Both the position numbers and the translations under genes were made by a program. Below, piece after piece: positions 38,827 to 64,000 of a DNA stretch of 64,000 bases. The notes below the pieces were generated by a model. It had not been told where the DNA came from and did not search any database. It saw only the letters and a program-made list of their open reading frames with translations. Within the stretch, counting starts at the first letter, position 1. Each line of letters begins with the position of its first letter. Origin of the DNA: Phenylobacterium sp. (GTDB lineage: Bacteria > Pseudomonadota > Alphaproteobacteria > Caulobacterales > Caulobacteraceae); assembly GCF_030693625.1 (NCBI RefSeq), contig NZ_JAUYAF010000024.1, positions 53,992-117,991 on the forward strand. Direction: 5' to 3'.

Positions 38827-38855
38827 TTGACATTAACGAAGAACGTCTAGAGAAC
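38827..38855 (+). promoter_or_regulatory. lexA promoter with SOS box
   Basis: SOS box GAAC-N7-GAAC (38841-38855), the reverse of the alphaproteobacterial GTTC-N7-GTTC LexA site. It overlaps a plausible promoter: TTGACA at 38827 and a -10-like TCTAGAGA near 38846, close to the Caulobacter housekeeping pattern. It lies 43 bases upstream of the lexA start, consistent with autorepression. Confidence 0.8.
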
Positions 38856-38898
38856 ATCGGCAAGGTTTCCGCTTTGTTCTTCAAGGGCTCGTCGTCCA

Positions 38899-39594
38899 AT
38901 GCTCACTCGTAAACAGCACGAATTGCTCATGTTCATCCATGAGCGGATCAAGGAGAGCGGTGTCTCGCCCTCCTTCGACGAGATGAAGGAGGCCCTCGAC
39001 CTGGCCTCCAAGTCCGGCATTCACCGCCTGATCACGGCGCTGGAGGAACGCGGCTTCCTGCGCCGCCTGCCGCACCGGGCCCGCGCCCTGGAAGTGGTGA
39101 AGCTGCCGCAGCAGGCCACCACCTCTTCCCCGCCCAAGGGCCGCGCCCCGTTCAAGCCGCAACTGGTCGAGGCCGGCGCAGCCCAGCCCGCGATGAACGC
39201 GGCCAACGACACCCGCGAGATTTCGGTCCTGGGCAAGATCGCCGCCGGCACCCCAATCGAGGCGATCCAGCAGGAGCGCGACCGCATGCACGTGCCCGAG
39301 AGCATGCTGGGCGCCGGCGAGCACTACGCCCTCGAAGTCCAGGGCGACTCCATGATCAACGCTGGCATCCTGGACGGCGACTATGTCGTTATCCGCAAGA
39401 CCGACACCGCCACCTCCGGCGAGATCGTCGTCGCCCTGGTGATGGGTGAGGAAGCCACCCTCAAGCGCCTGCGCAAGAAGGGGGCCTCCATCGCCCTGGA
39501 GGCCGCCAACCCGGCTTATGAGACCCGCATCTTCGGTCCCGACCAGGTCCAGGTGCAGGGCCGGCTCGTCGGGCTGATCCGCAAGTACCACTAG
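38899..39594 (+). CDS. lexA: LexA SOS repressor
   Basis: Represses DNA-damage genes until RecA filaments trigger self-cleavage. 231 residues. Winged helix-turn-helix 1-69 ([36 protein letters not shown]), a long linker, then the S24 peptidase domain. Cleavage site Ala116-Gly117 (GKIAAGTPI), catalytic Ser151 (QGDSMINAG) and Lys189 (ATLKRL). The alphaproteobacterial form is longer than E. coli LexA (202), as here. Autoregulated by the SOS box upstream; another matching box lies before the sidA candidate at 63.5 kb. Confidence 0.98.
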
Positions 39595-59989: not shown

Positions 59990-63430
<3,441 letters not shown>

Positions 63431-63458: not shown

Positions 63459-63551
63459 TCAGGCGGCCAGTTGCGCGACCTGACACATCATCCAGACAAA
63501 CCCCGCGACCGACACAAAGGCCAGCGATTCCCGCGCCAAACGAACAACCAT
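63459..63551 (-). CDS. sidA: SidA-like SOS-induced cell-division inhibitor (30 residues)
   Basis: Tiny bitopic membrane protein. The ATG at 63551 has an AGGGGTGA ribosome site; the product is [18 protein letters not shown] followed by [12 protein letters not shown], a short basic N-terminus and one membrane helix (about 8-28). In C. crescentus the 29-residue SidA is LexA-controlled and blocks division by acting on FtsW/FtsN. Here three independent signs agree: the size and topology, a perfect SOS box 18 bases upstream, and position beside dnaE, where I recall the Caulobacter gene lying. Sequence identity with SidA was not checked by alignment. Confidence 0.8.
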
Positions 63552-63569
63552 AACGTCACCCCTGTGAAT

Positions 63570-63584
63570 GTTCTTCGTATGTTC
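63570..63584 (-). promoter_or_regulatory. SOS box (LexA site) upstream of sidA
   Basis: Perfect GTTC-TTCGTAT-GTTC on the plus strand, read as GAAC-N7-GAAC in the direction of sidA, the same orientation as at lexA. A TTGCCA-like -35 element lies upstream near 63602-63607 in the sidA direction. Confidence 0.85.
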
Positions 63585-63661
63585 CTATTCTCCTTTTGTT
63601 CTCATGGCAAGGGGGCTATGTTGGCATCATCGTCACGCCAGCAACGAACGGGAGCATCACA

Positions 63662-63910
63662 GTGGCTCACATGATTGGGGCGGTCTTCGGCGCCTTAGTG
63701 GCAATGTTCCTGGTCAGCCGTGCGACCTTGTGGTTGTTCAAACGGCTTGGAGACAGACCGGCCCGCATCCTGACGGCGCATGCCGTCGCCTGTGGCGCAG
63801 CCGTGATCCTTGGCGGCTTCGGGTTCGCCAATGGCGGACCGCCCGCTTTTGGCTATGCAGCTAGAGCATTTTTCGATCAGTCTGCATCGTATCCAGCGGC
63901 GGCGAAGTAG
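63662..63910 (+). pseudogene. Small membrane protein of unknown function, 3' end replaced by an IS element
   Basis: GTG at 63662 with a GGGAG ribosome site opens an 82-codon frame (VAHMIGAVFGALVAMFLVSR). Two hydrophobic segments, about 4-20 and 40-58. The last 15 or so codons (from about 63863, reading RAFFDQSASYPAAAK) come from the end of an IS630-type element inserted at a TA, so the natural C-terminus is lost. No family recognised. Divergent from sidA across the SOS promoter region. A longer start at 63596 exists but lacks a ribosome site. Confidence 0.6.
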
Positions 63911-64000
63911 TTCGCGCATTCCCTTGGTGTGAAGGCGTCGATGATTTGAGCGATGGCTGACCAGAGCTGCTCGAGGGTTCTGGCGGCGGCCTTTCGGAGC
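63863..64000 (-). mobile_element. IS630-family insertion sequence, one end (runs off right edge)
   Basis: Boundary proposed at the TA dinucleotide 63862-63863, the target used by IS630/Tc1 elements, with the end reading GAGCATTTTTCGATCAG. Inside is the 3' end of a transposase gene on the minus strand. The rest of the element lies outside the window. Confidence 0.75.
63877..64000 (-). CDS. IS630 family transposase, C-terminal end (partial)
   Basis: Minus-strand frame open from the window edge to a TGA at 63877-63879. The translated end reads LRKAAARTLEQLWSAIAQI, then IDAFTPRECANYFAAAGYD and AD. The ending ECANYFAAAGYD is characteristic of IS630-family DDE transposases. About 40 residues are visible; the catalytic DDE part is outside the window, so whether the copy is active cannot be judged. 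Confidence 0.85.
   Translation of the reverse strand, partial: LRKAAARTLEQLWSAIAQIIDAFTPRECANYFAAAGYDAD

Follow-up and report, generated by a model that had tools for sequence, protein, structure and literature searches.

A dnaE-linked SidA orthologue in Phenylobacterium and its putative tandem LexA operator

In Caulobacter, the main SOS-induced division inhibitor is SidA, an inner membrane protein of 29 residues. The question raised by the locus described here is whether a 30-codon frame lying just upstream of dnaE in Phenylobacterium sp., with a perfect LexA box in front of it, encodes the same protein under the same kind of control. The stretch of DNA analysed, referred to below as the window, is 64,000 nucleotides long; the features under discussion are collected in Table 1.

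Table 1. Features of the sidA-dnaE and lexA regions, in window coordinates
Feature	Position	Strand	Basis and remarks
sidA, 30 aa; membrane peptide with one predicted helix, putative SOS division inhibitor	63459..63551	minus	ORF, NF033228, synonymous bias
sidA ribosome-binding site, AGGGG, 7 nt 5' of ATG	63559..63563	minus	read from sequence
Proximal LexA box, perfect, GTTCTTCGTATGTTC; GAAC-N7-GAAC on the gene strand	63570..63584	minus	pattern scan; present in 30/30 nearest loci
Possible -10 element, TAGGAA; 17 nt from -35, overlaps the edge of both boxes	63582..63587	minus	inference
Distal LexA-like box, GAACAAAAGGAGAAT, one mismatch; 17 bp start-to-start	63587..63601	minus	tandem in 140/146 upstreams
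Possible -35 element, TTGCCA	63605..63610	minus	read from sequence
dnaE (DNA polymerase III alpha subunit), 28 nt 3' of sidA	59990..63430	minus	ORF; NF004226, 1428.7 bits, cut-off 1002
Perfect LexA box 5' of lexA	38841..38855	plus	pattern scan; in-genome control for the box pattern
lexA, the repressor expected at these boxes	38899..39588 (end is that of the profile match)	plus	TIGR00498, 182.7 bits, cut-off 110.95

The 30-residue frame and its family

In the ORF list, the frame has 30 codons on the minus strand, with its ATG at 63551 and the end of its stop codon at 63459. The first-pass annotation had described such a frame together with a ribosome site, one predicted membrane helix and a GTTC-N7-GTTC element 18 bases from the ATG, and each part of that description holds; the best 17-residue Kyte-Doolittle mean, which starts at residue 10, is 1.90. 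Using NF033228 (div_inhib_SidA), an NCBIfam equivalog model, the ORF is matched with 67.3 bits against a cut-off of 35, its residues 3-30 aligning with positions 2-29 of the 29 in the model; among 14 control genomes this model has matches in Caulobacter vibrioides only. A Pfam scan of three SidA peptides gave no family. The model score, a length close to 29 residues with a predicted helix, the LexA-type box and the locus adjoining dnaE were thus all found, and on sequence grounds the ORF encodes, as had been proposed, the SidA orthologue of Phenylobacterium. The further claim that the gene is one missed by length-limited gene callers found no support here: NCBI already models exactly this 29-residue family, of which the Phenylobacterium protein is a further member. 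It has in common with the SidA of Caulobacter crescentus/vibrioides its length (29-30 aa), its sequence, its one predicted helix and its LexA-type box, and with the named C. vibrioides strains (OR37, T5M6 and DSM 9893) also its place 5' of dnaE; it differs in one extra N-terminal codon, seen in the window's subgroup.

All of the 30 nearest dnaE loci within the genus, counting that of the window itself, combine the peptide with a perfect box and a downstream dnaE. Among the named relatives that aligned with SidA (the best 80 of 139, a set sharing some genomes with the 30), dnaE lies downstream in 78, the other two having no dnaE start in the stretch examined, and a perfect box lies within 130 nt of sidA in 51. 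Nineteen further Caulobacteraceae upstreams, hand-chosen from the matches listed, all have the peptide, and a SidA-like frame was found in nine of 11 more, mostly from rarer genera. The sidA-dnaE order is seen in 169 of 179 rows, with dnaE 12-253 nt 3' of sidA (median 25); the remaining 10 have no dnaE start in the stretch examined, and some genomes are counted twice. Residues R6, E7, L9, A10, S13, V14, F17, V18, W19, M20 and A25 are kept in at least 90% of 100 distinct 29-residue proteins (out of 108 distinct proteins, the others differing in length or first residue). In 47 distinct sequences of the LARESLAF type, mostly from Phenylobacterium, there are 332 synonymous and 297 non-synonymous changes from the consensus where 192.8 synonymous ones are expected, though related sequences are each counted singly and the 332 changes are not 332 events; 35 Caulobacter-type sequences have 133 synonymous and 97 non-synonymous changes, with 56.1 synonymous expected. 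None of 2000 simulations matched the observed synonymous count in either set, and the frame, to judge by its codons, is under purifying selection.

These results bear directly on two other ways of reading the frame. It might control dnaE through its own translation, as a leader peptide or upstream ORF, and be no division inhibitor; it does lie 28 nt from dnaE on the same strand, in an order that is kept, but its amino acid sequence is conserved with a synonymous bias and it scores above the threshold of a family in which the division phenotype of the Caulobacter protein has been tested, which leaves this reading improbable. That a chance open frame happens to lie beside a chance box gains something from the fact that perfect boxes arise by chance about once per window, and is already refuted by the conservation at the 30 nearest loci, the synonymous bias and the match to a curated family; its likelihood is negligible. 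Similarity to SidA and conservation of the frame among close relatives, on which the first-pass annotation had in part let its case stand or fall, were both found, in the same three results.

An order-wide search with a Phenylobacterium-trained profile gave matches at E up to 0.01 in 66 of 398 genomes and 8 of 59 genera; in several genomes of genus cluster g6 this profile had no match. Across the class, NF033228 matched 6 of 385 genomes, two of them over the cut-off, with the window's genome among these two. Two divergent Caulobacteraceae peptides, from clusters g6 and g4 (our guesses are Brevundimonas and Asticcacaulis, respectively), score 28.5 and 26.5 bits on NF033228, below 35. One weak order-level match from outside the family (G582; E 0.005, model positions 14-28 within a 216-residue open frame) has been taken as chance, as have three class-level NF033228 matches below the cut-off. 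On phages and plasmids, tblastn with one 29-residue query gave no match at E up to 1, and 26 pattern matches in viral contigs yielded no confirmed relative.

A Caulobacter-genus genome (G236) has a second SidA-like peptide, of 37 aa (L209:4073-4186, minus strand), which scores 29.7 bits on NF033228, below the cut-off. There is no box within 130 nt of it and no dnaE in the 8-kb stretch; its ORF overlaps the end of the preceding one by ATGA, and close by are genes for GapR, a ParB-like protein and an XRE-type repressor. Possibly it is a SidA copy carried by a mobile element. In one Phenylobacterium MAG, sidA-dnaE occurs on two contigs (L151 and L152) that share the peptide but differ slightly in their boxes, and the bin is probably mixed; L152 sidA as a paralogue was rejected, that contig also carrying dnaE and being attributed to a second strain within the bin. 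The window's own contig ends in a short open frame (63877-63999, minus strand) for which Pfam gives no family and which we take to resemble the end of a transposase; the assembly may break there at an insertion sequence.

LexA boxes and promoter layout

Taken by itself, a perfect box is weak evidence for sidA. Three are present in the window against 1.18 expected, a number reached by 9 of 100 shuffles, and over the whole genome the counts are 97 for the box and 59 for a reversed control pattern. The sidA box rises above chance because it is conserved in relatives, in 30 of 30 loci, with the synonymous bias of the frame it precedes. Of the single SOS box that had originally been described, the perfect box is present as stated, but a second, one-mismatch box adjoins it, and the sequence suggests an operator made up of two boxes in tandem.

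Among 146 distinct sidA upstreams, which include that of the L209 paralogue not adjoining dnaE, some box is found in 145 and two boxes 15-20 bp apart (16-19 bp as seen) in 140, a count of related sequences and not of 140 independent events; dinucleotide shuffles give 0.02 tandems per 146 upstreams. Those with no tandem are L065, L155, L157, L187, L188 and L209. The pair consists of a perfect proximal box and a distal box with one mismatch in 74 of the 140, as in the window, of two one-mismatch boxes in 54, of two perfect boxes in eight, and of the reverse type, perfect distal and one-mismatch proximal, in four. "One mismatch" here was permitted in the second half-site only, and at the third base of that half-site was barred in these tandem counts and permitted in the scans of other clusters, of the class and of the other perfect boxes of this genome. 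Many Caulobacter loci differ from the window in having a perfect box further upstream (-64) while both core boxes have one mismatch each, and other Caulobacter loci have no perfect box within 130 nt. No tandem neighbour was seen at 32 other perfect boxes of this genome; this control is weak, the boxes coming from 30 of the 97 loci, over half of which may be chance (59 for the reversed pattern against 97).

A plain sigma-70 consensus scan found no promoter at the sidA site. The TTGCCA and TAGGAA elements of Table 1, if used, would place the promoter across both boxes, and LexA would be expected to bind at both. On the opposite strand, a 104-residue frame (63596-63910, plus) has its TTG start inside the distal box, and its Pfam matches, all below cut-off, are to membrane proteins; should it be a genuine gene, it may have the operator region in common with sidA.

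The layout can also be read with the distal element, GAACAAAAnnnGAATA, as the core promoter and no second operator, LexA then using one box. The last base of the distal element is off the consensus GAAC in most sequences (T in 77% of the 140), TTG[AC] is found no more than 16 nt before it in 110 of the 140 tandem upstreams, and a 2025 study gives a single box for about 97% of Caulobacter SOS promoters (PMC12700426), all of which fits such a promoter; what makes it unlikely in our estimation is that the four bases following GAAC in the distal box, in the would-be promoter spacer, are A at 93, 99, 99 and 89% over the 140 upstreams, though only the GAAC was imposed by the search, and that both boxes are perfect in eight. 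A different proposal, which is an addition to the SidA reading and no replacement for it, is that sidA and dnaE form one SOS-induced transcript, by which damage would raise the replicative polymerase alongside the division block. The gap of 28 nt here, the median of 25 in 169 rows and the same gene order in other clusters speak for this, while two terminator-like matches within sidA (0.7 expected) and a literature search on sidA and dnaE in Caulobacter that gave nothing speak against it, and it is put forward tentatively, at less than even odds.

SidA-like peptides before dnaE in other clusters

Short frames with the same kind of box had also been looked for upstream of dnaE in other Caulobacterales, as the first-pass annotation suggested. 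A candidate ORF had to be 24-45 residues long, to exceed 1.6 in 17-residue hydropathy and to begin 15-120 nt downstream of the first base of a box with at most one mismatch. In the other clusters of the order, 104 genomes were searched and 89 upstreams examined (the rest had no match or a late or incomplete start, or were unfetched). Candidates were found in clusters f4 (24 of 28), f5 (17 of 20) and f3 (6 of 18), and none in f2 (0 of 23); shuffle controls for f4, f5, f3 and f2 gave 0.15, 0.10, 0.00 and 0.03. Elsewhere in the class (80 genomes searched, 70 examined), candidates were found in 5 of 30 and 3 of 40 genomes (8 of 70), all behind perfect boxes, with shuffles at 0.00. Within class cluster f125 there is a candidate in three of the four further genomes searched, the fourth having no dnaE match, and within f8 in three of three further genomes. 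No box-preceded SidA-like frame lies 5' of dnaE in the 23 f2 genomes or at the Caulobacteraceae loci L230 (G277) and L233 (G197), the two lacking it among the 11 above; the gene may have been lost in these or may lie in another genomic place.

Outside the Caulobacteraceae, the box and the hydrophobic ORF served as selection criteria and hence are not discoveries; the independent sequence support for these peptides comes from the f2 result of 0 of 23, the shuffles, the synonymous-codon counts and the profile comparison. By eye, many are SidA-like, with one helix, an acidic residue at its start, often after R/K, and often a tryptophan near its end. In the codon test, 89 synonymous changes were seen in f4b against 52.2 expected (0 of 2000 simulations), 92 in f4a against 73.3 (8 of 2000) and 33 in f5 against 23.3 (10 of 2000). 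Profile comparison with SidA, using distinct peptides taken from the DNA by script (24 for f4, 16 for f5, 4 for f3, 8 for the class and 104 for Caulobacteraceae; L368 of the class, and perhaps L298, is doubtful yet counted), gave 94.6% for f4, 92.0% for the class and 17.8% for f3, each reached by none of 60 column permutations. Direct alignment of the f5 peptides with SidA was rejected at 0.3%, a value attained by 16 of the 60 permutations; the only links of f5 run by way of f4 (80.6%) and the class (92.2%), and f4 with the class gave 94.5%, again with 0 of 60 permutations each. An earlier comparison with hand-picked sets had given 95.2, 81.0, 18.1 and 1.9% for f4, class, f3 and f5. NF033228 found none of the eight such peptides scanned from the order and class clusters at E up to 1. 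They are strong candidates for SidA-like genes, as judged from sequence, and not SidA members by that model.

In the literature searched, which covered few subscription journals and no preprints, there was no report of SidA-like dnaE-linked peptides in other taxa. The look-alike genes before dnaE suggest a checkpoint of greater age and reach than the named family. In the fullest form of this idea, which we regard as an even bet taken as a whole, a LexA-controlled, dnaE-upstream membrane peptide of about 30 residues would be an ancient invention of the alphaproteobacteria and Caulobacter SidA a single, fast-evolving branch of it. Such peptides would block the divisome upon DNA damage across much of Caulobacterales and several other orders, outside the family model there, and their conserved position would tie dnaE expression to the SOS promoter.

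The proposed checkpoint and its significance

The lexA gene lies in the same window as sidA, its box 43 nt from its ATG, and the genome has an ftsW scoring over the cut-off. The region at 38841-38901, with TTGACA upstream of the lexA box, is arranged as for autoregulation. The reading preferred here, to which we assign a probability of roughly 0.93, is that the peptide is a SidA orthologue, LexA-repressed at two boxes, damage-induced, and blocking FtsW/FtsI/FtsN. LexA on the two boxes overlapping the promoter would keep sidA off; on DNA damage, active RecA would lead to self-cleavage of LexA and the 30-residue peptide would be made, enter the inner membrane as one helix and hold the assembled FtsW/FtsI/FtsN complex inactive, such that septum synthesis would halt until the damage is repaired. 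Induction, membrane insertion, binding to FtsW/FtsN and division arrest are all ascribed by analogy with Caulobacter, and orthology would be no proof that the target of SidA is the same as there. In Caulobacter, sidA has been used as an early SOS gene with a promoter stronger than that of uvrA, according to the 2025 study (PMC12700426).

Several other inhibitors invite comparison. Caulobacter DidA is likewise a small membrane protein and inhibits the late divisome complex that SidA acts on (PMC4211646); it differs from SidA in being SOS-independent (DriD) and in binding FtsN. YneA, ChiZ and SosA of Gram-positive bacteria are, like SidA, SOS-induced membrane division inhibitors by published description. 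All four have been modelled on FtsW at low confidence, with SidA on the opposite side of FtsW TM7 from the other three (PMC13396833).

On the evidence of sequence, the SidA checkpoint extends to Phenylobacterium; what goes further, and would interest specialists, is the putative tandem operator and the occurrence of SidA-like peptides 5' of dnaE in other clusters. SidA overproduction is lethal in Caulobacter (PMC4211646), and a tandem operator offers a testable reason for tight control of such a peptide. Mapping of the SidA-FtsW contact, where the published models are of low confidence (PMC13396833), would gain from a deep and diverse set of SidA sequences. The list of candidates outside the named family makes it testable whether alphaproteobacteria in general stop division after damage by way of a dnaE-linked microprotein.
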